Of a stretch of 64,000 nucleotides of DNA, positions 4,080 to 54,158 are shown piece by piece (the first letter of the stretch is position 1; the number at the start of each line of letters is the position of its first letter). Both the position numbers and the translations under genes were made by a program. The notes below the pieces were generated by a model. The model worked only from the letters and a program-made list of their open reading frames with translations. It made no database searches and had not been told where the DNA came from. The stretch covers positions 62,001-126,000 of the forward strand of contig JAHLKG010000003.1 in NCBI GenBank assembly GCA_025526995.1, written 5' to 3'. This DNA comes from Powellomyces hirtus (taxonomy: Eukaryota; Chytridiomycota; Chytridiomycetes; Spizellomycetales; Powellomycetaceae).

Positions 4080-5210
4080 ATGGCACGTAGCACCAGGAAC
4101 AGCCCAATGGCAGTAGGAGAACCCGAAGTCAACACACCGACTGACAACCCCGTCGCAATGTTAGCTGCACCATTGGCGGAGACCCAACACCTACTGCAGG
4201 AACAGATCGCAATGGGAGAGGCCCGCTTCGAAGCCCTTCTCTCAAGGATTCCGACTCCAGTCCAACCAGCGGTTGCAACACCGCACGTCGACATCATCCT
4301 GGCGGAAGAAAACCGCGCACGAATGCAAGCTGAGAAGGAACGCCGCGAGAACCTTCGCAAGCAGCTGACACACTTCGACGGAAAAGGGAACAGTGAAGAA
4401 ATGGTGTCGAAGGTCGATGAGTTCCTGAAGGTCCACACGCACTACCTTGAGGCAACCGACTTCAGGACGGACCACCGGGACGTCGACCACATCTCGGGGT
4501 ACCTCAAGGAAACCGCCGACAAATGGTGGCAAATGCTCAGAGATGCCGGCGACCAGCCCACAACATTGGAAGAATTCACGAGGATCCTCCGCATCCACTT
4601 CTACCCCGCCAACTTACAAAACACTGCAGAAGCAAAGATGAAGCGGTTGATTTTCACCAATAGCATATCGGAGTATATCGCCAAGTTCAATACCCTTCGG
4701 GCCCAGATTGCGATGCTCGACAACAAGGAGCGGCTTACCCCAAGGCAAGAACATGACTATTTCTTGACGGGATTCTCAACCAACCATGTCGGCCAGCGCA
4801 TTTGGGACCACTGCTATGCCGCAATCATGAGGAATAATGGTGCCAAGATCCCGATCACCGAGCTACAGAACGAAGCTCTACTATGCTACAGGATTCAAGG
4901 CTATGCGGACGATGTCGCGCAGGTAACCCCTGACAGGAGGAGACGTAGTACGCTGCAGTCCAGCCAGCTCAGGTACATCGAGGGAACTATCAAGCTCGAG
5001 AAAGGGGACGCCACACCCCCTATGGCTCAGGTCGTCCCACACGCGGTATGGACAACTACCAAGGGATTTCACGCCATGAGCGCACCATCTACAACAAACG
5101 CCGTGAGCGCAACGAATCTTTCAACTGCGGGGGCAAGGGGCATTACGCCCGTGGGTGCTCAGCAAGTAAAGGTAAAACCGGTGAGCATAGGATGTTCGCC
5201 GCCCCTGTAG
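4080..5210 (+). pseudogene. Chromovirus Gag (capsid part)
   Basis: The frame starts at ATG 4080, 28 bases after the LTR (MARSTRNSPMAVGEPEVNTP). Residues about 85-240 form a Retrotrans_gag capsid: LTHFDGKGNSEEMVSKVDEF, TADKWWQMLRD, LRIHFYPAN and SISEYIAKFNTLRAQI. After about 5040 the natural protein moves to another frame (5048-5290), so the last 50 codons of this frame are not authentic. Gag coats the element RNA in virus-like particles. Confidence 0.85.
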
Positions 5211-5290
5211 AGATCACCGAAGGGTCCGGAGACGAGGCGGCCAGTGACGGGGGCTCAGTCAACAGCTCGGATTTTTGCCCCGGGTGCTGA
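5048..5290 (+). pseudogene. Chromovirus Gag nucleocapsid (zinc knuckle, frame-shifted)
   Basis: This frame carries an Arg-rich stretch and one CCHC-type knuckle, SFNCGGKGHYARGC. The canonical CX2CX4HX4C pattern expects Cys where Ser stands, so the first zinc ligand is lost (TGT to TCT would suffice). It overlaps the start of the pol frame by 16 bases. Confidence 0.75.
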
Positions 5291-7716
5291 ACGCTTGCAC
5301 CGTCTCAGTACCCCAACCCCGGATGCAAGACAAGATCCCCACGGACAGACTGGGACCCCGCATTCACAGGAAGACATTTGTGGTCCACGGGAAGGTACAA
5401 GGGCACTTTACCCGCATCCTAATCAATACCGGATGTAACACCCTGATCATCAGCGACACTTGGGCTGCCAAACACGGCCTCCGGACCTACACCTCTCCAA
5501 CTCCGCTGGAGGTCTGGTGGGGCGACAGAGCGGAAAACTACGGGGCAACAAAGATGACCTGTGGGGACCTCTCGGTGTTCACCGAGGAGAAGATCATCTA
5601 CCGGGAGGATACTGTACCATTTGTGGTCTCGCCGATCAGGGTCGATGCCATACTGGGCTTGCCATTCATATTGGGGCTGGACGTCCGAGGGCTTTTCGAC
5701 CAAGAGGGCTTTCCAACGATGACGTTCTACCACGACGGCCAGACCCTCAGCCTTCGAGCCAAATTGACCAACCGCCACTGGGAAGCACCGTCCGCGTGCG
5801 CCGCCTGCCTACTCTCCCCACCAGAGGTACGGCCCCGCAGATTCCAGCCAGCGAAGCCAGCACTCAATGCAGAGGGAATCTACATGGCCAAGCAATGGAA
5901 ACGCTTGATGAAGAAGGGCGAGATCACTGGAGTCTTCGAGGTACACATCGTAGATGCGATTCCAGTCGCAGAGGCTCAATTTGTACGGACGGTCGACGCC
6001 AAGAAAAGGGCAATCTTGGAGGAACAACGCCACACCAACACTGAAGCCAAGGCGGCAGATCAAGAAGACCCGCTAGAGGCGCTGGCAGCCGACCATCCAC
6101 TCCGACTGACCCTAGAGAAATACGTCACGACGCTATTCACCGAGCAGTCAGGCATGCCTCCGGACCGAGGCGAGGACAATTTCACCATTCGGCTCAAACC
6201 CGACTCGAAGCCCGTGATGCAGCCACTCCGGCATTTGAGCCCTGACGAACTGGACGAGCTCGGCCAGCACATGCAGCGTTTAATGGACAAGGGTTGGATC
6301 TCACACTCTCGCAGTCCGTGGAGCGCGCCCGTCCTATTTGCCCCAAAGAAGGACAGCGGCCTACGCTGCTGCATTGACTACCGGGCACTGAACAAGATGA
6401 CTCACAAGGATGCCACGCCACTTCCGAACCTCTCGGAGCTGCGCGACAGGCTTGTCAACATGCGGGTATTCACCGCGATCGACATCCGTGACGCGTACCA
6501 CTGCATCATGACCCGACTGGAAGATAGGGAGAAAACAGCGTTCAGAACACGTTTTGGACATTTTGAATACAATGTTCTACCTTTCGGCTTAACTAATGCA
6601 CCTGCTACATTCCAGCGACTAACCAACAAGCTCTTGGGCAACAAGTACAACGCCTACGTGATCTCATACCTCGACGATATTCTCATATTCAGCACCGACA
6701 TGAGTTCGCACATTCAGCACGTCGACGAGGTCCTCAAGACCTTGACGGAACATCGCCTCCACGTCAAACCCAGCAAATGTCAATGGACGGTTGACGAAGT
6801 CGAGTTCTGCGGCCACCGAGTCGGCAAGGATGGCCTGAGTATCGCCCCCTCCAAGGTGACTGCGGTCCGGGAACGACCTCGCCTGACCAACTCCCTGGAG
6901 CTCCTTAGCTTCATGGGCCTTGTCAACTATGTCAAGGAATACATCTCCGAGTATGCATACATTGCCCTACCCCTAACGAATCTGCAATCCGGCAACCGCC
7001 CATGGCAGTGGGGTGACGAGGAAGATCGAGCGTTCAATCGCTTAAAGGAATTATGCTCCTCGGCACCCACCCTAGCGTACTTCGACCCGGCGCTCGACAC
7101 CTACTTGTTCACGGATGCATCGGGCTACGCCTACGGCGGATGGCTGGCGCAGCCGGCCAAAGGGGATTTCCCTTACCCTCACCCACTACCAACCACCAAA
7201 TCAGGCTTAGCCAATCTCCTGCAACTTCGCCCGGTGACATACTACTCCCGCAAGATGCAACCCGCCGAGACTCGATACCCCGTGCATGAACAAGAACTAC
7301 TGGGATTAGTCAAATCCATACGCGCCAACCGCCATTACCTCATCAGCCGCCCATTCCGCGCGTTTGTTGACCACAAATCCCTGATGTACCTCCAGGAACA
7401 ACCCCACCTGTCACGTCGCCAAGCAGGCTGGGTCGAGTTTCTCCAACAGTTCAATTTCTCAGTGGAGTACCTCCCTGGCACATGGAATTCGATCGCCGAC
7501 TTCCTCAGTCGCGACCCGACTTACGCCCCCAAGTGTGCAACCTGCCAGGCCAAGATTGACGTGGTCACCGCCATTGTGCAGATGGAGAAGCCCGTCCCGA
7601 CGCACATGCCGACCGATGCGGACTGGACCCAAGCGCTCGCATCGGATGATTTCGGCCAAAACATCTTACTAACCATCAACAGTCCCCCGGAGAACCTATC
7701 CGGCCATGCACGCTGA
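5275..7716 (+). pseudogene. Chromovirus Pol, first part: protease, reverse transcriptase, RNase H
   Basis: An 813-codon frame entered by frameshift from gag; its first codon is TTG, not ATG. The protease active site should read D-S/T-G but reads ILINTGCNTLII (Asn codon 5425-5427). RT follows with the DIRDAYH region, GLTNAPATFQRL and intact YLDDILIF near 6670. RNase H has FTDASGYAYGGWLAQ and HEQELLGLVKSI. The frame ends at TGA 7714-7716 and the next codons continue Pol in the same frame (7726-9213). A CGA to TGA change explains the stop. Without readthrough no integrase is made. Confidence 0.9.
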
Positions 7717-7725
7717 TTCCGGACA

Positions 7726-9213
7726 GTGGACTCCCCTCTGCACCGATTCTTGATGTACCATGACCGTCGGTACATCCCCGACAGCTTGCGGGGGCCACTC
7801 CTTCAGATTCATCACGACTCCCTCACAAACGGTGGTCACTCCGGTGTCCAACGAACGCTCGCCAAACTTCTGGAGTCGTACTATTGGCCTCACATGGAGC
7901 GTGATGTGTACCAATATGTCCGCACCTGCCCTACCTGCCAACGTCACAAGCGAACTGCGCCGATCGGTTTCCTCCGCAGCTTACCGATCCCCGACGCCCG
8001 TTGGCAACAAATCGGCATGGATATATTCTTCCCCACGTCAGGCTCTAAGGGGGGGGAACCTCGGGTAGAGCCCGACGTGATGAAGAACCCTCCGCACCAC
8101 ACCGGCAAGAGACTGACCAAGACGGCAGACGCCGTACTCCTCATCGTCGACTACCTTTCATGCCGCGTGATACTCCTACCTACTAACACACGCGCTACAG
8201 CTCAGGAGATGGCTCAACTCTTTCTGGAACAGGCATTTCGCCACACGGGGTTACCCCACACCATTGTGAGCGATCGGGACCCCAAGTGGCTATCAGAATT
8301 CTGGCGGTACCTCATGCGGGCACTCGACGTCAAGCAAGAACTCTTGTCGGCACGACACCAACAGACCGACGGCAAGGTGGAGAACGCCATCAAGACAATC
8401 AAGGGAATCATGGGCCCCTTTCTCGACTATGCCGGCTCCAACTGGAAGAGTTTACTCCCCACACTCGAGTACAACTACAACCGAACGCCGCAGACGTTGA
8501 CGGGACTATCCCCTTTCGAGATTGACCTAGGCCGCGTTCCCCGGGTACCGAACCAATGGGTAGCACCTAACCCCGGAGAGATGATAAGGCAATCGGCACG
8601 AACCGCCGTGGAGAGACGGGTTAAGGAATTCGCCGACGTGAGTCGCATCATGCAGCAACGGCTCCGAGATGCACAGGACCAGCAGGCAAAGTACTACGAC
8701 CGCAAGAAGCACACGGAAGCATACCGAGAGGGTGACAAGGTCTTACTCCATTGTGAGGGTATTGCGATTACCAGTGTCACCACAAGGAACAAAAAGCTGG
8801 CTGAGCAATGGATTGGGCCATTCACAGTACGCGGCAAGGGGCCACATCCTGACACCTACGAGCTCGAACTACCCAAGGAGTTCACCGGGTTGCACCCAGT
8901 CTTTCATGTCAGCATTCTGAGACGTTACCATGACCCGGGCGGTACCCCGTACAGACAGGTCACCGCTCCGCCTGAGCCCAAGAAGGACGAAGACGGTCAG
9001 GAAATCTACCAAGTGGACAAGATCCTAAATGCCAGATGGCACAGGAACACCGAGCAGTTCTTAGTCAAGTGGACAGGTTACGACAGCACCCAGAACACGT
9101 GGGAGCCGTATGCACACGTGAAGGGGACAACCGCACTGGAAGACTGCCTCCGGGAGCACCCCGGAGAGGACCGCGGCCAAAGGCTAGCAGCCAGGCAACG
9201 TAAGAGAACCTAG
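7726..9213 (+). pseudogene. Chromovirus Pol, second part: integrase with C-terminal chromodomain
   Basis: The same frame as the RT part, after one stop. The zinc-binding H2C2 domain (HHDSLTNGGHSG ... CPTCQRH) is followed by the integrase core with Asp in GMDIFFP, Asp in VSDRDPKW and Glu in TDGKVENAIKTIKG. The C-terminus (nucleotides 9001-9159) is a chromodomain: IYQVDKILNAR, QFLVKWTGYDSTQNTWEP. All three aromatic cage residues (Tyr, Trp, Tyr) are present. Chromodomains of chromoviruses bind methylated histone H3 Lys9 and steer integration into heterochromatin, which fits the nested setting. Confidence 0.9.
9001..9159 (+). other. Chromodomain of the chromovirus integrase
   Basis: About 50 residues, YQVDKILNAR ... 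FLVKWTGYD ... NTWEP. Aromatic cage Tyr/Trp/Tyr is complete. Confidence 0.85.
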
Positions 9214-11166: not shown

Positions 11167-13728
11167 TTACTCATTCGGGAGCTCCGTCATGGACGCTTTC
11201 GTCATTGGCGTGATGGTGTTGACGTGGTGCTTGATGCACATGCTTTCGCGATGGTATTTGAATGCCGGGGCCGGTAAAGGCTTCGTAAGTGAGTCGGCTA
11301 CCATTTCAGCGGTGGGTAAGTACTCCAGGTGAATCTCCTTGTCGATGTGATCACGAATGAAGTGATGTCGAATGTCGATGTGCTTGGTACGGGCGTGATG
11401 CACGGGATTCATTGCCAACGAGATGCATGACTGATTGTCTTCGTAGATCGTTGTAGGTCGAGCATTTTCATCGAGATATTCGGGGATTTGGAGTTCTTGC
11501 AGAAGTGAGCGAAGCCAGATTGTCTCTTGAGTGGCGAAGGAGAGTGCCATGTATTCAGCTTCGGTAGATGAGAGAGCAACGGTGGGTTGGCGCTTCAAAG
11601 CCCAAGTAACGGGGCCCGCATTTTCAATGTAGAAAAGGTAGCCAGTGATTGACCGTCGATCAATGATGTTGTTTCCCCAATCGGCATCGCTGTAGCCGTG
11701 AAGGGTGACGTTATTTCCGCCGATGCAAAGGCTGTAATCTGATGTTCCCCGTAGGTAGCGAAGAACTCGCTTTGCAGCTTGCAGATGTTGAGGCGAAGGG
11801 TTGCTTGCGAAGCGAAAAAGCATACTGACTGCGACAGCGATGTCAGGACGCGTGCATATCATCAGGTACATGAGAGAACCAACGATTTCGCGATATTCTC
11901 CTTCTTGCGGGTTAGGTGAAGTCTTTGTATTTTCGACTTTGTAGGGTTCGAGCTTGGTCTGGTCCATCGGAGTGTTGACGGGCTTGCAATCTTGCATACC
12001 AAAGCGCTCAAGGATGTCATTTACATATGACTCTTGATCGAGGTAGATGACGTGCCTTGAGTAGTCGCGTCGAACTCTCATTCCCAGATAGTGATTGACT
12101 TTGCCTAGGTCTGTCATGTTGAACTCGTTGTGCAGGGATGTCTTAATTGACGAGATTTCCGATTCGGTCTTTGCGAAAATGAGGAGATCGTCAACGTAGA
12201 CGGAGATGTACTGCGATGAGTCACTTTCAGGTAGAGTTCTGATGTAAACGGCATTGTCATTTGCCAGGCGCTTAAATCCCAAGGAGGTCAGTTCCTTGTG
12301 AAGTAGGGAGTACCATTTGCGCGGGGCTTGTTTCAGACCGTAAAGGGCCTTTCGGAGTCGAAGGATGGTCCGTGGCAGAAAGCCAGAGCCTTCAGGGGCA
12401 TAGATTAGGATAGTCTCAGTAACGATCCCATTCAGGAATGCGGTTACGACATCCATTTGATGGCATTTCAAGCCTAGACTGGCGGCGAGAGCGAGGAGGA
12501 CGCGTTGGGTAGCTATCTTGGCAACCGGAGCGTAGGTTTCGTTGTAGTCGATGCCGTAGCATTGTTCGAAGCCTTTCACTACAAGCCGGGCCTTGTATCG
12601 TTGGGGTTGACCATTCAGGTCTTGCTTAATCTTGAATACCCATTTAGTGCAGATGGGCCGTTGATTGTGCGGTAAGGATTTGGGGTTAATGACTTCCCAT
12701 GTTTCATTGGTATGAAGGGACTTCAATTCGGCATTTATGGCCTCGGTCCACTTCGGCGTGTCGTCTGATGAGAGCGCTTGTTTGTAAGTTTGGGGTTCTT
12801 TGGTACTTGCAGCCGAAAGAGCGGTCGCCGTCTTCTCGTTGATGTAGTCAGTGAAGACTGTCAAATGATTGACATTTTCGAGCTGTTCCCATGTATTATC
12901 TTCGTCTTCGAATCCTAGCCATTTGCAGAGGAATTTGGGGCCTTCCGGGCCATCACGTGAGTCGAGAATCTCTTCGACTTCGTAGAGTTCTTTGGGCGGA
13001 ATGTAGTCTTTCGCTAGTTCGAGTGCTGAGGTTTCGTCGAACGTTACATCGCGAGAAATGACTATTTCTTGACGGTTGTCATCCCAACAGCGGTAAGCGC
13101 CGTCAAATTCGTAACCGATGAGTTTGAGACGTGTGGCGCGCGGTGCCAACTTTGAGACTTGTTTTCTCTTGACAAGATGCACGAAGGCATTGGCCCAAAT
13201 CACTCGGAGGTGAGAAAGTGAGGGCTCTTTGCCATTGAGCCGTTCGTACGGCGAAATGTTGTTATTGGACTTGTGGGGTAGGCGATTCCGTAAGTAGACT
13301 GATGTAGCCGCTAACTCTGTCCAGAGTTGTTTTGGGATGCCGTATGACTGTTCCAATGAACGCATGGTGTCGAACAGAGTGAGGTTGAACCTTTCAGCTA
13401 CACTGTTGGACTGTGGGGAATCTGCAGCGGTGAGTTCGTGCAGAATGCCCTTTTTCGAAATGAATTCTTTCAGATCGTGATTGACAAACTCCCCCCCTAG
13501 ATCGGAATGAAGTCTTCTGACCCTTTCGTTGGTCTGTTTTTCGATGAAATTGATGAATTCAATCCATTTTGCAGTAGATTCGCTCTTTGTCTTCAAAAAG
13601 AAGATCCATGTGAAGCGTGAATAGTCATCGATCACAACGAGGGCATATTTCTCATCGCCAACCGCGGGTATGTGCGGACCGTTTAGGTCGAAATGTAGGC
13701 GATCGAGTGGCGTCTTGGACCGTGTCAT
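11167..13728 (-). CDS. Copia Pol (minus copy): integrase core, chromodomain, RT, RNase H
   Basis: An uninterrupted 853-codon frame. Integrase core has the catalytic triad Asp14 (LHFDLNGP), Asp76 (RRLHSDLGGEF) and Glu112 (SNSVAERFNLT). Residues 248-298 form a chromodomain. RT starts near 328 (WTEAINAELKSL) with YVDDLLIFAK; RNase H has YSDADWGNN, ALSSTEAEYMAL and YEDNQSC. The integrase zinc finger lies upstream in a separate frame because of a TAA (13765-13767). The element copies through an RNA intermediate and inserts the cDNA. This copy has all catalytic residues; it cannot be expressed as one polyprotein because of the stops and its missing 5' end. Confidence 0.9.
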   Translation of the reverse strand: MTRSKTPLDRLHFDLNGPHIPAVGDEKYALVVIDDYSRFTWIFFLKTKSESTAKWIEFINFIEKQTNERVRRLHSDLGGEFVNHDLKEFISKKGILHELTAADSPQSNSVAERFNLTLFDTMRSLEQSYGIPKQLWTELAATSVYLRNRLPHKSNNNISPYERLNGKEPSLSHLRVIWANAFVHLVKRKQVSKLAPRATRLKLIGYEFDGAYRCWDDNRQEIVISRDVTFDETSALELAKDYIPPKELYEVEEILDSRDGPEGPKFLCKWLGFEDEDNTWEQLENVNHLTVFTDYINEKTATALSAASTKEPQTYKQALSSDDTPKWTEAINAELKSLHTNETWEVINPKSLPHNQRPICTKWVFKIKQDLNGQPQRYKARLVVKGFEQCYGIDYNETYAPVAKIATQRVLLALAASLGLKCHQMDVVTAFLNGIVTETILIYAPEGSGFLPRTILRLRKALYGLKQAPRKWYSLLHKELTSLGFKRLANDNAVYIRTLPESDSSQYISVYVDDLLIFAKTESEISSIKTSLHNEFNMTDLGKVNHYLGMRVRRDYSRHVIYLDQESYVNDILERFGMQDCKPVNTPMDQTKLEPYKVENTKTSPNPQEGEYREIVGSLMYLMICTRPDIAVAVSMLFRFASNPSPQHLQAAKRVLRYLRGTSDYSLCIGGNNVTLHGYSDADWGNNIIDRRSITGYLFYIENAGPVTWALKRQPTVALSSTEAEYMALSFATQETIWLRSLLQELQIPEYLDENARPTTIYEDNQSCISLAMNPVHHARTKHIDIRHHFIRDHIDKEIHLEYLPTAEMVADSLTKPLPAPAFKYHRESMCIKHHVNTITPMTKASMTELPNE
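12835..12987 (-). other. Chromodomain inside copia Pol (minus copy)
   Basis: Residues 248-298 read LYEVEEILDSRDG ... KFLCKWLGFEDEDNTWEQ, matching the chromodomain pattern YxVExIL...LVKWxGY...NTWEP. The aromatic cage positions are Tyr249, Trp270 and Phe273. It sits between integrase and RT, not at the integrase C-terminus as in gypsy elements. Confidence 0.8.
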
Positions 13729-17415: not shown

Positions 17416-19977
17416 ATGACACGGTCCAAGACGCCACTCGATCGCCTACATTTCGACCTAAACGGTCCGCACATACCCGCGGTTGGCGATGAGAAATATG
17501 CCCTCGTTGTGATCGATGACTATTCACGCTTCACATGGATCTTCTTTTTGAAGACGAAGAGCGAATCTACTGCAAAATGGATTGAATTCATCAATTTCAT
17601 CGAAAAACAGACCAACGAAAGGGTCAGAAGACTTCATTCCGATCTAGGGGGGGAGTTTGTCAATCACGATCTGAAAGAATTCATTTCGAAAAAGGGCATT
17701 CTGCACGAACTCACCGCTGCAGATTCCCCACAGTCCAACAGTGTAGCTGAAAGGTTCAACCTCACTCTGTTCAACACCATTCGTTCATTGGAACACTCAT
17801 ACGGCATCCCAAAACAACTCTGGACAGAGTTAGCGGCTACATCAGTCTACTTACGGAATCGCCTACCCCACAAGTCCAATAACAACATTTCGCCGTACGA
17901 ACGGCTCAATGGCAAAGAGCCCTCACTTTCTCACCTCCGAGTGATTTGGGCCGATGCCTTCGTGCATCTTGTCAAGAGAAAACAAGTCTCAAAGTTGGCA
18001 CCGCGCGCCACACGTCTCAAACTCATCGGTTACGAATTTGACGGCGCTTACCGCTGTTGGGATGACAACCGTCAAGAAATAGTCATTTCTCGCGATGTAA
18101 CATTCGACGAAACCTCAGCACTCGAACTAGCGAAAGACTACATTCCGCCCGAAGAACTCTACGAAGTCGAAGAGATTCTCGACTCACGTGATGGCCCGGA
18201 AGGCCCCAAATTCCTCTGCAAATGGCTAGGATTCGAAGACGAAGATAATAAATGGGAACAGCTCGAAAATGTCAATCATTTGACAGTCTTCACTGACTAC
18301 ATCAACGAGAAGACGGCGACCGCTCTTTCGGCTGCAAGTACCAAAGAACCCCAAACTTACAAACAAGCGCTCTCATCAGACGACACGCCGAAGTGGACCG
18401 AGGCCATAAATGCCGAATTGAAGTCCCTTCATACCAATGAAACATGGGAAGTCATTAACCCCAAATCCTTACCGCACAATCAACGGCCCATCTGCACTAA
18501 ATGGGTATTCAAGATTAAGCAAGACCTGAATGGTCAACCCCAACGATACAAGGCCCGGCTTGTAGTGAAAGGCTTCGAACAATGCTACGGCATCGACTAC
18601 AACGAAACCTACGCTCCGGTTGCCAAGATAGCTACCCAACGCGTCCTCCTCGCTCTCGCCGCCAGTCTAGGCTTGAAATGCCATCAAATGGATGTCGTAA
18701 CCGCATTCCTGAATGGGATCGTTACTGAGACTATCCTAATCTATGCCCCTGAAGGCTCTGGCTTTCTGCCACGGACCATCCTTCGACTCCGAAAGGCCCT
18801 TTACGGTCTGAAACAAGCCCCGCGCAAATGGTACTCCCTACTTCACAAGGAACTGACCTCCTTGGGATTTAAGCGCCTGGCAAATGACAATGCCGTTTAC
18901 ATCAGAACTCTACCTGAAAGTGACTCATCGCAGTACATCTCCGTCTACGTTGACGATCTCCTCATTTTCGCAAAGACCGAATCAGAAATCTCGTCAATTA
19001 AGACATCCCTGCACAACGAGTTCAACATGACAGACCTAGGCAAAGTCAATCACTATCTGGGAATGAGAGTTCGACGCGACTACTCAAGGCACGTCATCTA
19101 CCTCGATCAAGAGTCATATGTAAATGACATCCTTGAGCGCTTTGGTATGCAAGATTGCAAGCCCGTCAACACTCCGATGGACCAGATCAAGCTTGAACCC
19201 TACGAAGTCGAAAATACAAAGACTTCACCTAACCTGCAAGAAGGAGAATATCGCAAAATCGTTGGTTCTCTCATGTACCTGATGATATGCACGCGTCCTG
19301 ACATCGCTGTCGCAGTCAGTATGCTTTCTCGCTTCGCAAGCAACCCTTTGCCTCAACATCTGCAAGCTGCAAAGCGCGTTCTTCGCTACCTACGGGGAAC
19401 ATCAGATTACAGCCTCTGCATCGGCGGAAATAACGTCACCCTTCACGGCTACAGCAATGCCGATTGGGGAAACAACATCATTGATCGACGGTCAATCACT
19501 GGCTACCTTTTCTACATTGGAAATGCGGGCCCCGTTATTTGGGCTTTGAAGCGCCAACCCACCGTTGCTCTCTCATCTACCGAAGCTGAATACATGGCAC
19601 TTTCCTTCACCACTCAAGAGACAATTTGGCTTTGCTCACTTCTGCAAGAACTCCAAATCCCCGAATATCTTGATGAAAATGCTCGACCTACAACGATCTG
19701 GGAAGACAATCAGTCATGCATCTTGTTGGCAATGAATCCTGTGCATCACGCCCGTACCAAGCACATCGACATTCGACATCACTTCATTCGTGATCACATC
19801 GACAAGGAGATTCATCTCAAGTATTTACCCACCGCTGAAATGGTAGCCGACTCACTTACGAAGCCTTTACCAGCCCCGGCATTCAAATACCATCACGAAA
19901 GCATGTGCATCAAGCACTACGACAACAACATCACACCAATGACGAAAGCGTCCATGACAGAGCTCCCGAATGAGTAA
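17416..19977 (+). CDS. Copia Pol (plus copy): integrase core, chromodomain, RT, mutated RNase H
   Basis: 853 codons, near-identical to 11167-13728. Integrase triad and RT motif YVDDLLIFAK are intact and the chromodomain is at 18157-18309 (NKWEQ where the minus copy has NTWEQ). In RNase H the first catalytic Asp is Asn: YSNADWGNN instead of YSDADWGNN, a G-to-A change within a CpG (gCGAt to gCAAt). Other changes include WEDNQS for YEDNQS. RNase H of this copy is probably inactive. Confidence 0.9.
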   Translation: MTRSKTPLDRLHFDLNGPHIPAVGDEKYALVVIDDYSRFTWIFFLKTKSESTAKWIEFINFIEKQTNERVRRLHSDLGGEFVNHDLKEFISKKGILHELTAADSPQSNSVAERFNLTLFNTIRSLEHSYGIPKQLWTELAATSVYLRNRLPHKSNNNISPYERLNGKEPSLSHLRVIWADAFVHLVKRKQVSKLAPRATRLKLIGYEFDGAYRCWDDNRQEIVISRDVTFDETSALELAKDYIPPEELYEVEEILDSRDGPEGPKFLCKWLGFEDEDNKWEQLENVNHLTVFTDYINEKTATALSAASTKEPQTYKQALSSDDTPKWTEAINAELKSLHTNETWEVINPKSLPHNQRPICTKWVFKIKQDLNGQPQRYKARLVVKGFEQCYGIDYNETYAPVAKIATQRVLLALAASLGLKCHQMDVVTAFLNGIVTETILIYAPEGSGFLPRTILRLRKALYGLKQAPRKWYSLLHKELTSLGFKRLANDNAVYIRTLPESDSSQYISVYVDDLLIFAKTESEISSIKTSLHNEFNMTDLGKVNHYLGMRVRRDYSRHVIYLDQESYVNDILERFGMQDCKPVNTPMDQIKLEPYEVENTKTSPNLQEGEYRKIVGSLMYLMICTRPDIAVAVSMLSRFASNPLPQHLQAAKRVLRYLRGTSDYSLCIGGNNVTLHGYSNADWGNNIIDRRSITGYLFYIGNAGPVIWALKRQPTVALSSTEAEYMALSFTTQETIWLCSLLQELQIPEYLDENARPTTIWEDNQSCILLAMNPVHHARTKHIDIRHHFIRDHIDKEIHLKYLPTAEMVADSLTKPLPAPAFKYHHESMCIKHYDNNITPMTKASMTELPNE
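18157..18309 (+). other. Chromodomain inside copia Pol (plus copy)
   Basis: Same domain as in the minus copy with one Thr to Lys change. Cage residues Tyr/Trp/Phe are retained. Confidence 0.8.
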
Positions 19978-43825: not shown

Positions 43826-46502
43826 ATGCTCTCTCGTCATTCCATTCTTGTTCTTCGAAGCTTTGGTCGGAACTTGCCTCCTCACACTATGCACGGACGT
43901 CTGACAGCGCGTCGAGCTTTGGTCTCGAACCTTACCGATCATCTGGTTTCTACGCCCAGTCCTGCAAGCACAAACGGGACGACGGTCTTCGCAAAGTCCG
44001 TTGGCACCATTGCTGAGTCACAGGACACAAGGACCACTACGGGACCAGGTACTGGTTAGGTCTGAGTTGCAACTGTCGAATAGTTCATACACTTATGCAA
44101 GCGCTTTAATGGAATTGCGGCCGGATTCAAACCTTTCAGAAGCATCCTCCACTTTGGAGGCTTTGGGACCTTCCTCTGCGCAAGCTGGTCGCATGCCCGA
44201 GGACGATCATATCGAAGCGACGGGAAAGAACGCAGACATGAACACTAGCAAGACTCTAGACTGCGATGAAACAAGTGTCGACTTGCATCCCGGGAAAGAG
44301 GACATGCACAAGGAGCAGACCCCGAAAGAAAGGGAGACAATGAAGGAAGACGTGTTGGAAGCCCAGATTGGGGACCATGAACGCAAAGCTCTGGCAGACA
44401 CATACAATGATACCAGCATGAACCTCGAGCGCGATCTTGATACCAATGCTACAATGTTGTCCAACGTTGACGCCAGGAACAAGGACGACAACAAAAACAA
44501 TCAGCAAACTCTAGACTCAACGAATTCGAGCGCCCAAGGCGGTGCTTCTGAAACAGCTGAAAAGGCCGAAGAAGTTGCTTTCGAGACAGCTGGAAAGGCT
44601 GAAGGCGGCAGGAAAGATGACCGTGCCGATGTGTCTGCCATGTTAGCTTCAATGCTTCGCAGTGAGCAGGAACACGCGATGAAGGAAACTGACCCGACGT
44701 TGACGACCACCCGGGCGGAAGCTGCGCACGTTGAAGAGGGGACCATGGAGCAGACGAACATCAGTGAGTTTGCAACAAGAACCACCAAGACAGAGAAGGT
44801 GGATTGTCCAGGTAGGAAGCTGTGATGGACGCAGCGGCTACTGATCTATTCTGGTCTGAAAATGTCCCTTTCAGCGGCCACACCCGAGCAGCCAGAATTG
44901 AAATCAAAAGGGCCTAAAGAACGTGAGTCATGACCTTATGACGCAGGGTATTCCCTTTGGGCGATGTGATTAATCGTGCTTGGACAGCGAACAATGTGGA
45001 ATCAAAGAATGAACATCCTTTCGGGAAAGCAACGGAGACCGAGCTGATCCAGCTTGACAAACAAATCACAGAGAGAAGGCCGGTCGACCCGAAGCAGAAC
45101 GCTCCGGTGCTTGTACTAGCTACGAACGTCAATGAGGTTATCGCACAAGCACTGCATTGTAAGAGACCGCGGCTCATGGCAGCAATCTTTCTATTACTGA
45201 CCCACTTTCATTTCTCGTGACGCAGTCGCTGCCAAGCACACAAAAGATGCAGACAAGACGCGGAACCTTACTCGAGCTGCTCAAGACGTTGCCAAACATC
45301 AGGACCGAATTGTCTCTGGCCTGAGTGCCGCATTGGCTATCAGCAGCATTCAAAAGCCATGTGCGGAGATCATTGATGAGTTCCTTGGATTGGTTAGTAT
45401 TTCCCTGACATGCGCGAGTGTTCAAAATTGACAATAACCGCGTTTGTAGGACAAGATGATTGCCAAATCCGAACGTAAGGGCAAGACAGCCAAGACCAAG
45501 AAAACTGCGAAAACGGACAAAGCTGTCCAAAAATCACTTCAGGTGATTGCTGGGCTTGGGTATGGCTGATTATCGATGGACATCCTTCAGCAGAATGCTG
45601 ACAAACATCTTTATGTTAGACCGATCGGAGCCCGCAGCCTTATGGAGGCTTATCCGATACGCACCCTAGCTGATATCTACAAGAACGTTCCCTCAAAAGT
45701 GCTATCACCCATGCAGTTTGCTGGCTTGAAGCATTTGGATGACTTTCGGAAGCAGATTCCTCGCGAAGAAATGACAACCTGGGAGGTATGAAACAAGAAC
45801 ATTCCGGAGAATATGACGCAAATCTCTATCTCATGAACTACTTACTCTCCAGACCCTACTTAAAGAGACCGCTCAATCGGTTGTTCCAGGCATGCAGGTT
45901 GAATTGGGCGGGATCTATCGCCGTTCTTGCCTCTTCAGCCAGAAGATCACAGTTCATATGACACATGAATCGTGGGAGTCATCAGGCTCTAGCTGGGACA
46001 ACGGACGCGCGGGTAGTCTTATGCTTCAGCAACTTCATGACAAGCTGATTAGGAAGGGTGTGCTGGTAGATGACATCAAGTACAGCAAGAGATTGGTCGA
46101 GCACTCGGTATGAGGTGCCGCCGCTCTCATGGCGTTCAGTATTTTAACTTGTTTCTCTGATCGACAGGGAGTGTACCGTCTTCCCGACGGAGTCTGCCGC
46201 CGCTTGGAAATCCAGATCAGTCCCTACGATAGGCATTGGTATGCTCTGTTTCTCAGTACGAGGAGTAACAAGCTGATCACGAGGTTGCGAACGAAAGCGA
46301 CATCGATGGGGTATCAATTGGAGCGCGGGTACATTCTAGATTCTCAAGGTACGATGCGTGGTTCCGAGTCGCCAGCAATGCAACTTTGACTTAGCATGAT
46401 CGCTCTGCTGCTACCGTCATAGGAGTTGCGTTGAAGGGATTGCAGAGCGAGGAGGATCTTTTTGCCAAGCTTGATGAAGTCTACGAACCACCGAGCAATT
46501 GA
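43826..46502 (+). CDS. DNA polymerase beta (family X)-like protein lacking catalytic residues
   Basis: Ten exons: 43826-44048, 44140-44811, 44875-44922, 44988-45158, 45226-45392, 45450-45542, 45591-45785, 45853-46107, 46168-46348, 46423-46502. They join in frame to 694 residues. The N-terminus (MLSRHSILVLRSFGRNLPPH, then HGRLTARRALVSN) is Arg-rich with no acidic residue, a mitochondrial-type presequence. Residues about 75-370 are acidic, low complexity. Residues 372-427 resemble the 8-kDa lyase domain (AKHQDRIVSG...CAEIIDEFL), 459-523 the HhH and thumb (PIGARSLMEAYPIRTLADIY, GLKHLDDFRKQIPREEM), 524-694 the palm and fingers (GGIYRR, RRLEIQISP, GLQSEEDLFAKLDEVYEPP). The palm aspartates read Lys554, Thr556 and Glu622, and the lyase lysine reads Ile420. 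Probably not an active polymerase; a DNA-binding or structural role is possible. Confidence 0.8.
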
Positions 46503-50787: not shown

Positions 50788-52107
50788 ATGGCCAAAGCGA
50801 GCTCGCTTCTCGTTGGAGCGGCGTTTGGGTTTGTGCTGGAAAAGACCAAAGTCTACGTGCCGAGCGTGATTGTTGACCAGATGCTGTTCGAGCGGTTTAC
50901 GATGTTGAAGATGTTTGTGACGGCGGCTGCGGGTGGGATGTATGTATAGAAAAAATAAAAACAGCCCCGAAAAGTGTCGGCGTGGGAACACATGGGAACC
51001 CCCGACCGAAAATCTTGCCAGACTAAACCATGTTTTTCTTTTGTTTGTTTTTGTTTTTTTCTTTTCTCCAGGGTCGTCATGTCAGTATTGGAATCATTCG
51101 GATTGTTCCGGCGAGCGCCCAAGTCACCCGTGTATCTGGGATTGGGTTTATTGGGCGGGTTTGGTGGGAACCTTGTGGGGGGTGTGCTTCTGGGCACGGG
51201 AATGTCGTTGAGCGGTTCTTGTCCGGGAACCGTGTTGGTTCAACTGGGTGCCGGTGTGCGTTCGGCTTGGACCGTTATGGCTGGGGCATTGGCCATGTCG
51301 TTGTCATATGGATACCTGCTGAGGTATGGTGCCGAGATGTGGAGGAGTGTTTGACTGGAATAGGGTGGTTATTGAAGTGATGGTTTTCGTTTTTTTGTCA
51401 GTTACGTGACGGCTGTGATTCCGACATTTGGCAAGAAAGGCGAACCGTTGGCTACCGTGGACCAACGATACCGCACCGGCTATGTCCCCGTGGCGCTGTC
51501 TGTGGCACTTGTGTGTGGAGTCGGGATCAGCATTCTCAACACCACGCACCCGTGGCAAAGTGAGCTTCCGGACATGTACAAGAACGCCACACTGACTCGG
51601 CTGGGCACAGGTTACTACGCTGCTCTCGCCGATCCGCGGTCCGTCGCGTGGAGCCCCGTTGTTGGCGGATTGATCTTGGCGGCGGTGCAGGGCGTGTCGA
51701 TTCTGAGTACTGGATGCACGATTGGGGCATCGAGCGCGTTTGTCGAATTGGCAGCCAAGGCGGTCACTGCGCTGGATAAAAACTGGCGCAGCCATGCGCC
51801 GTATTACGCGGCGTTTCGTGGATCCAACTCGATTTTCTTGGCAGTGGGGGTTGTGGCTGGCGCGGCGACATCGGCGTGGCTTTCGGGAGCGGCGTCGTAT
51901 GCGGCTGCCATGCCGGCGGCGACACCGGTCGGCGGGTTGGGGCGGGATTTTGTTGGAGGTGCGCTGCTGTTGTTGGGAGCCCGGATTGCGGGCGGGTGTA
52001 CCTCTGGCCATGGGATTAGTGGGATTGCCCAGTTGGGGATCCCGTCGCTTATTACGGTGGCGGCGATGTTTGGCGGCGGTATGCTGGCGGCGCAGCTCTT
52101 ATACTAG
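50788..52107 (+). CDS. YeeE/YedE-family sulfur transporter
   Basis: Exons 50788-50939, 51072-51323 and 51402-52107 join to 369 residues. The protein is highly hydrophobic (about 9-10 membrane segments) with an internal duplication. Conserved Cys motifs of the family are present: LSGSCPGTVLVQLGAG, ILSTGCTIGASSAF and IAGGCTSGHGISGIAQLG. Bacterial members such as TsuA take up thiosulfate through a path lined by these cysteines, and fungal members carry the same sulf_transp domain. It is expected to import an inorganic sulfur compound. The T-rich acceptor region at 51050-51071 is typical of introns here. Confidence 0.88.
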
Positions 52108-53045: not shown

Positions 53046-54158
53046 ATGCAACTTCCGTTTGGAAAGAAAACCAAGAAGCCGTCGACCACCCATCCCGAAT
53101 TCGATCACCACCAAGTGCATGGCCACCACCACGCGGTCGCAACCGCGCACCACCAAGTCGCCGACGAGACGGGCTGCTTCTACTGCCTGCACCGCCTCAA
53201 GAACCCGCACGGCGTCAGCCCGCGATGGAAGCGCGTGCAGCGGATCGTCGGCCGCATTGGCTTTGGTGCAAAGGGCGTCGTCTATGGAATGATTGGCGGA
53301 ATGACCTGTGCATCCGCGAGCAAACTCCGTGGAAACTTTGGAAACAGCCCGCAAGGCGCGTTTGTCATGATTGGAAATGCGCCCTCGGGAACAGGAGCGC
53401 TTTTTGTCATGCTTCTAGGTAAAGAACTTTGCTTGTCTTGCTTCATGTCCCGCTCTTGTTACGCCCGCAATTCTAACATGGCACTTATGCTCTCCCGTTC
53501 TCCTCCACCAGCTCTATGGTGCTATGCGATCTGGCGGTTCTGGGAATTCCTCACCTACCAAGGACGAGACGCCACGTTTGGCGCCGCCAAAAACTTTTTC
53601 CGGTTCCGGCTCTCCCCACTCGTCAGTGGCTGCGTCTACATGACCTACTCGTACTACATCATCCAGATGTTGCTCGACCAATACCGGGACCGCGAACCAA
53701 GCTGTTACCCCAACTGCTGGCGAGAATCGACGGTTGGCAAAGTGGCGCTGATCCTCATGGGTGTTGCGTTTGTCATTGCGTGCATCACCCAGCTGCAGAA
53801 CGCGCTGACCAAGAAATGGCACTCGGAAATCAAATGGCAATCGTGCAAAACGGCCGTGGAAAAATGGGCCCTGCTGGTTCTCGGCCATCTCGGATTCCTC
53901 GGCCGCGCCGGCATCTTCCTCTTTGTCGGCGTGCTCATGTTCAAGGCCCTTAAACGACCCGTCAAGCAATCCGGCGATGCCCTCTCCGACGGCCTGGCCC
54001 AGCTGCTGGACGGCTCGACTGCCGGCTTGATCACAATGTGGATCACTGGCATCTTGACCGTCATGTACGGCGTCTTTTGCCTCCTGTGCACCCGGTACCG
54101 CCAATTCCCAACACCACCACCAAGCGGGCAACCGTACATCTCGAACCGATCAAAGTAG
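53046..54158 (+). CDS. DUF1206-type integral membrane protein
   Basis: Exons 53046-53418 and 53512-54158 give 339 residues. The 93-bp intron is in frame and open, so an unspliced reading would be 370 residues. ATG is in a good context (CACCATGC). A His-rich N-terminus (FDHHQVHGHHH) precedes three membrane repeats: GRIGFGAKGVVYGMIGG with ALWCYAIWRFWEFLTYQGRD; PLVSGCVYMTYSYYIIQMLL; FLGRAGIFLFVGVLMFKALK with DGLAQLLDGSTAGLITMWIT. The G.R.G..ARGVVY...G and Y..WR signatures are those of the bacterial DUF1206 family. Function unknown. Confidence 0.75.
   Translation: MQLPFGKKTKKPSTTHPEFDHHQVHGHHHAVATAHHQVADETGCFYCLHRLKNPHGVSPRWKRVQRIVGRIGFGAKGVVYGMIGGMTCASASKLRGNFGNSPQGAFVMIGNAPSGTGALFVMLLGKELCLSCFMSRSCYARNSNMALMLSRSPPPALWCYAIWRFWEFLTYQGRDATFGAAKNFFRFRLSPLVSGCVYMTYSYYIIQMLLDQYRDREPSCYPNCWRESTVGKVALILMGVAFVIACITQLQNALTKKWHSEIKWQSCKTAVEKWALLVLGHLGFLGRAGIFLFVGVLMFKALKRPVKQSGDALSDGLAQLLDGSTAGLITMWITGILTVMYGVFCLLCTRYRQFPTPPPSGQPYISNRSK

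Follow-up and report, generated by a model that had tools for sequence, protein, structure and literature searches.

We examined a 64,000-nucleotide window of contig JAHLKG010000003.1 (positions 62,001 to 126,000 of the forward strand; assembly GCA_025526995.1) from Powellomyces hirtus, a chytrid of the order Spizellomycetales with a genome of 29.3 Mb in 60 contigs. At 43826-46502 (+), ten exons spliced in frame encode a 690-residue protein that, judging from its sequence and with moderate confidence, is best explained as a whole as a DNA polymerase beta (Pol beta)-type pseudo-polymerase kept for a non-catalytic role. By sequence it is a member of polymerase family X (PolX). None of the three catalytic aspartates is kept (0/3), D190, D192 and D256 of Pol beta being replaced by K550, T552 and E618, and the Schiff-base lysine K72 of the lyase has become I420. 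An earlier note on this DNA had described the same gene. Its location, its orientation and its division into ten exons that join in frame were confirmed, while its length of 694 residues became 690 with the re-derived junctions; the aspartate replacements that it had numbered 554, 556 and 622 were recovered as Lys550, Thr552 and Glu618, together with Ile420.

Sequence similarity to Pol beta

Residues 352-690 (339 aa) were taken as the tested domain. A phmmer search of the PDB returned Pol beta as the best match (74.3 bits, E 8.2e-20) over query positions 3-337 of 339, in agreement with the homology throughout the fold claimed earlier, and Pol lambda scored at most 52 bits. The domain is 29% identical to rat Pol beta. 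Within a six-sequence PolX panel, scores ran from rat beta (72 bits) through human lambda (46), the lambda of the same genome (35) and human mu (32) down to the mu of the same genome (13); Thermus PolX, the sixth sequence, gave no match to the domain, and 0 of 200 shuffled domains matched the panel. Pfam profiles recovered part of the fold: the palm scored above its cut-off (44.6 bits vs 25), the fingers (25.4 vs 29.8) and thumb (18.0 vs 25) fell below theirs, and the protein gave no match to the lyase-domain family HHH_8, to BRCT or to PHP. A talin match in the lyase region was at chance level (E 0.33). A single-sequence structure model was poor (predicted local distance difference test, pLDDT, 49.4); the 50 Foldseek matches listed for it are PolX chains with TM-scores of 0.36-0.40 of the query.

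Loss of catalytic residues

Position roles are those generally ascribed to Pol beta, except where they are given in PMC9226535. Two of the three palm aspartates are replaced by non-acidic residues. At the deoxynucleoside triphosphate (dNTP) site and primer terminus, 6/16 positions are kept (G179, R183, S188, R254, T273 and R283); the replacements Y271 to L, F272 to S, G274 to R and N279 to I take in the steric gate, the glycine of the GS motif and N279. The lyase and 5'-phosphate pocket keeps 3/8 (K35, E71 and K84), with H34, Y39, K60, K68 and K72 replaced, and both glycines of the first helix-hairpin-helix are replaced in the alignment. Both glycines of the second are kept, and many fold residues also remain. 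Because each motif lies inside a single exon, other junction choices cannot bring back the missing residues, and a splice variant restoring the aspartates, a possibility raised in the earlier note, was ruled out. The protein is thus almost certainly dead as a polymerase and very probably dead as a Pol beta-type 5'-deoxyribose phosphate (dRP) lyase.

The Pfam palm family occurs at three places in the genome: on contigs C5 and C4 and in the pseudo-polymerase gene (C3). The thumb family was found on C4 only, and the lyase-domain family on C5 and C4 only. Searched against its own genome, the domain returned six pieces of its own gene and a weak match to C5 (E 0.35). The C5 gene is lambda-like, scoring 276 bits against Pol lambda and no more than 159 against beta, and the core of the C4 gene is mu-like, with 168 bits against Pol mu. 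Both keep all three aspartates, so that gap filling need not rely on the pseudo-polymerase. The stretch ahead of the mu-like core is BRCT-like by eye only. The lyase lysine is absent from the lambda-like gene (Ile, at exon junction 2918/2999) and from the mu-like gene (Met, near 2380), and hence from all three PolX genes found in the genome. The double inactivation described earlier stands for the polymerase and lyase residues themselves, whereas the lyase loss does not set this gene apart from its two relatives.

Selection and competing explanations

The protein is likely maintained by selection; the case is indirect because it is built on the absence of any stop in 690 codons, on coding-like codon usage and on non-catalytic positions that are better kept. 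Codon usage, scored after training on 49 long open reading frames (ORFs) from twenty 10-kb genome pieces, was best in the proposed frame for 9/10 exons, the exception being exon 1. Conservation was compared over the 72 columns in which rat beta, human lambda and P. hirtus lambda all agree: 5/12 catalytic or dNTP columns are kept vs 40/60 others, a contrast short of significance (Fisher p 0.117). As controls, human mu, P. hirtus mu and Thermus PolX keep 9, 9 and 10 of the 12 and 36, 38 and 25 of the 60, respectively. In a neutral-drift simulation of 1000 runs, the share in which the domain stayed free of stops fell from 48.7% at 0.02 substitutions per site to 20% at 0.05, 5% at 0.1 and 0.1% at 0.2; at 0.3 no run did. 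All but one of the four catalytic codons carry multi-hit changes, which suggest that the loss of catalysis is old. Provided that drift at the dead sites has been free from that loss onward, the frame would have been guarded over the same time.

Besides the non-significant contrast, several points weigh against a maintained pseudo-polymerase with a DNA-binding role. The 14 replaced site codons, which need at least 24 nucleotide changes over 42 positions, were chosen because they had changed, and selection is argued from one sequence; the earlier step from intact frame to selection thus holds insofar as an open ten-exon frame opposes simple decay, and is weakened on these counts. H34, K60, R149, R258, F272, D276 and K280 vary in active-looking panel rows too. 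On the template side 1/4 positions is kept (K230; K234, E295 and Y296 are replaced), and the argument for DNA binding comes from one retained hairpin. A structure model with four bacterial PolX rows reached a mean pLDDT of 57.9, which is low confidence. A search for a partner with XRCC1_N was silent, as was its control. An ortholog search of 5863 candidate proteins found nothing. Another, of 3005 candidates, returned only the gene's own 219-aa NCBI record, DFJ77DRAFT_216467, and a third, of 8000 candidates sharing most words, only that record and four bacterial PolX. As the profile of the third search included rat Pol beta and yet brought up no Pol beta of any eukaryote, absence cannot be concluded from these results. 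In viral contigs, a beta/lambda profile excluding the chytrid gene gave 249 pattern matches, none confirmed, and DFJ77DRAFT_216467 as query gave no match.

The empty ortholog searches would fit a decaying pseudogene, in which selection ended with catalysis and the frame is open by luck or youth. So would the branch of the protein in a nine-sequence tree, which is very long (2.63 changes per column vs a median of 0.68), the 219 of 690 residues annotated by NCBI, and the fingers and thumb below Pfam cut-offs. We regard decay as quite unlikely, given 690 codons without a stop, GT-AG borders at all nine introns, a codon bias that favors the proposed frame in 9/10 exons and the multi-hit catalytic codons. 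The same tree bears on origin. The protein joined rat Pol beta with support of 73/83, and approximately unbiased (AU) tests did not reject grouping with lambda or mu (p 0.20-0.26), for which reasons Pol beta orthology is favored, not proven. These values, like the fungal PolX groups described in the accessible text of PMC12362244 and PMC12828229, which are lambda-like and mu-like, would also suit an origin by duplication of the lambda-like or mu-like gene, after which the copy evolved fast and shed its extra domain, its loops and its active site. Such an origin seems unlikely, if less so than decay: the domain scores higher with rat beta than with human or own-genome lambda, Pfam found no BRCT, and its loop blocks are short (Loop1: 16 here, 14 in beta, 19-22 in lambda and 31-37 in mu; Loop3: 21 here, 25 in beta, 31 in lambda and 21 in mu). 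Residual catalysis by other residues, for example a lyase acting through Lys382 or Lys442, could call on the lysines kept at aligned K35 and K84, the latter in an uncertain alignment next to a ten-residue insertion. It appears very improbable, with the first-hairpin glycines and most pocket residues gone and no acidic residue between Glu536 and Glu558 to replace metal binding at Lys550/Thr552.

Where a pseudo-polymerase of this kind would act depends on exon 1. If that exon is real, the first 37 residues hold 6 Arg and no Asp or Glu before D38, as the earlier note had seen. The mitochondrial import that it drew from this start is weak because it rests on an exon with poor coding signal (-0.009 in frame vs -0.103 and 0.011 in the other frames), and a mitochondrial protein is possible but doubtful. 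A start free of acidic residues and with 6 or more K/R among its first 37 residues is also seen in 29/439 short, mostly spurious ORFs and in 1/37 long ORFs. A nuclear or cytosolic protein, starting at the in-frame ATG at 44109 that bypasses exon 1 or carrying an exon-1 peptide that is no presequence, is a substantial possibility that draws on the same two observations; in animals, Pol beta, lambda and mu serve mainly in repair in the nucleus. The nuclear or cytosolic reading is opposed by intron-1 splice scores like those of other introns, by the ACC preceding ATG 43826, which makes a good start context, by an amphipathic moment of the first 35 residues reached by just 7% of the 439 short and 5% of the 37 long ORF starts, and by 44049-44139, which is not coding-like in the exon-2 frame (-0.065).

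Gene model and neighboring features

The nine introns measure 57-91 bases each. Splice sites were scored, leaving one out, with a model built from 21 introns of three genes, the pseudo-polymerase gene and both paralogs. The scores of intron 1 (donor 5.18, acceptor 3.08) fell inside the range of the others; over 30 kb of the window, 7% of GT sites and 19% of AG sites reached them. Intron 1 has two in-phase donors, 44049 and 44055, and use of the alternative could explain two of the four residues separating the 690- and 694-residue models. DFJ77DRAFT_216467 is the same gene and agrees with our model from 45642 in exon 7 to the stop (Table 1); by starting within exon 7 it omits the first 471 of 690 residues and thereby hides the lyase-type region from annotation. 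The linker encoded by exon 2 is probably disordered, as its composition suggests.

Around the gene, the only repeats are short two-copy ones, and an Rfam scan of the window gave no match. Elsewhere in the window, the two copia-type ORFs point in opposite directions, with about 3.7 kb between them. The Sulf_transp and DUF1206 families, each represented by one protein, are mainly bacterial.

Table 1. Exons and key codons of the pseudo-polymerase gene, followed by other features of the window
Feature	Position	Strand	Description
Exon 1	43826..44048	+	Arg-rich acid-free N-terminus, residues 1-74; weakest of the ten exons
Exon 2	44140..44811	+	Acidic linker enriched in E, T, A, D and K; in-frame codon score 0.298
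Exon 3	44875..44922	+	Linker
Exon 4	44988..45158	+	Linker, then beginning of 8-kDa-like region
Exon 5	45226..45392	+	8-kDa (lyase-type) region with AEIIDEFL
Ile420 codon ATC	45369..45371	+	Schiff-base Lys72 position in Pol beta
Exon 6	45450..45559	+	Lys-rich stretch and first half of second helix-hairpin-helix (IAGLG)
Exon 7	45620..45785	+	Remainder of second hairpin (PIGAR), IPREEM; NCBI model begins at 45642
Exon 8	45853..46107	+	Palm; GGIYRR at 45907-45924
Lys550-Ile-Thr552 codons AAG ATC ACA	45943..45951	+	Asp190-x-Asp192 position in Pol beta
Exon 9	46168..46348	+	Palm strand RRLEIQISP, thumb start, dNTP-site region LSTRSNKLITRLR
Glu618 codon GAA	46207..46209	+	Asp256 position in Pol beta
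Exon 10	46423..46502	+	Thumb end EEDLFAKLDEVYEPPSN, then stop
Consecutive ORFs	4080-9213	+	By eye, gypsy-type element with a gag-like and a pol-like gene
853-aa ORF	11167-13728	-	By eye, copia-type retrotransposon pol, nearly identical to the next
853-aa ORF	17416-19977	+	By eye, copia-type retrotransposon pol, nearly identical to the previous
Sulf_transp protein	51406-52107	+	PF04143
DUF1206 protein	53046-54158	+	PF06724

Proposed role

In Pol beta, the second helix-hairpin-helix contacts the primer-side duplex, and the 8-kDa part, with its 5'-phosphate pocket and first hairpin, holds the downstream end. We propose that selection would have retained the folded body of the chytrid protein, with its second-hairpin glycines and palm/thumb frame, and that the protein may work without catalysis, as a subunit that binds duplex DNA or forms a scaffold and so positions or regulates the active proteins of repair; the acidic linker would be its tether. 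Such a scaffold or DNA-binding role is plausible, though we put it forward tentatively. The gap-binding factor suggested by the earlier note fared less well: gap binding through the 8-kDa domain is disfavored because 5/8 pocket positions and the first-hairpin glycines are replaced. zf-PARP matches are present in the genome.

A more ambitious version would have a conserved chytrid lineage importing into its mitochondria a Pol beta that is dead as polymerase and lyase, and that serves as a duplex-binding factor in mitochondrial DNA maintenance or as an organizer of active repair enzymes. Such a protein, a pseudo-PolX of eukaryotes that lacks a nuclease, would be evidence for a Pol beta lineage in early fungi alongside lambda and mu. 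We consider this full scenario unlikely.

Comparison with known systems

Repair pseudo-enzymes reveal polymerase functions that are separable from chemistry. The time at which Pol beta arose is a second matter on which a chytrid gene of this type would bear, because PMC12362244 and PMC12828229, within their accessible text, describe lambda-like and mu-like groups of PolX in fungi. Like animal Pol beta, the chytrid protein has aligned 8-kDa, fingers, palm and thumb regions, no BRCT that we could find, and short Loop1 and Loop3. It differs in its replaced triad, much of its dNTP site, the lyase lysine, most of the pocket and the first-hairpin glycines, and in an N-terminal extension of about 350 residues. 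Trypanosomatid mitochondrial Pol beta proteins offer a parallel in being Pol beta-type proteins in mitochondria, a location only suggested for the chytrid protein; they are described, in the accessible part of PMC8375306, as working repair and replication enzymes.

The closest parallel comes from prokaryotes. The accessible text of Prostova et al. 2022 (PMC9226535) describes noncanonical, dead PolX as 27.5% of a prokaryotic PolX set and reports two Deinococcus members shown to be without polymerase activity, which speaks against the new type of pseudo-polymerase that the earlier note had suggested. As in the chytrid protein, their triad is altered, with Lys, Thr and other residues in it, N279 is hydrophobic, and the steric gate and GS motif are lost; they may also co-occur with a canonical PolX in one genome. 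The same text describes a PHP exonuclease as generally retained, whereas the chytrid protein has no PHP match and ends after the thumb, and a lyase-type domain free of specific changes, whereas the chytrid 8-kDa region is altered. According to that source, dead PolX of bacteria and archaea are given a job by their nuclease domain; a eukaryotic counterpart that lacks this domain would have to play a structural part. ImuB, an inactive Y-family protein, provides there a model of a dead polymerase organizing an active complex, although it belongs to another family and has a described clamp binding and an active partner. Dead PolX being known from prokaryotes, the chytrid gene would be a nuclease-free eukaryotic variant.
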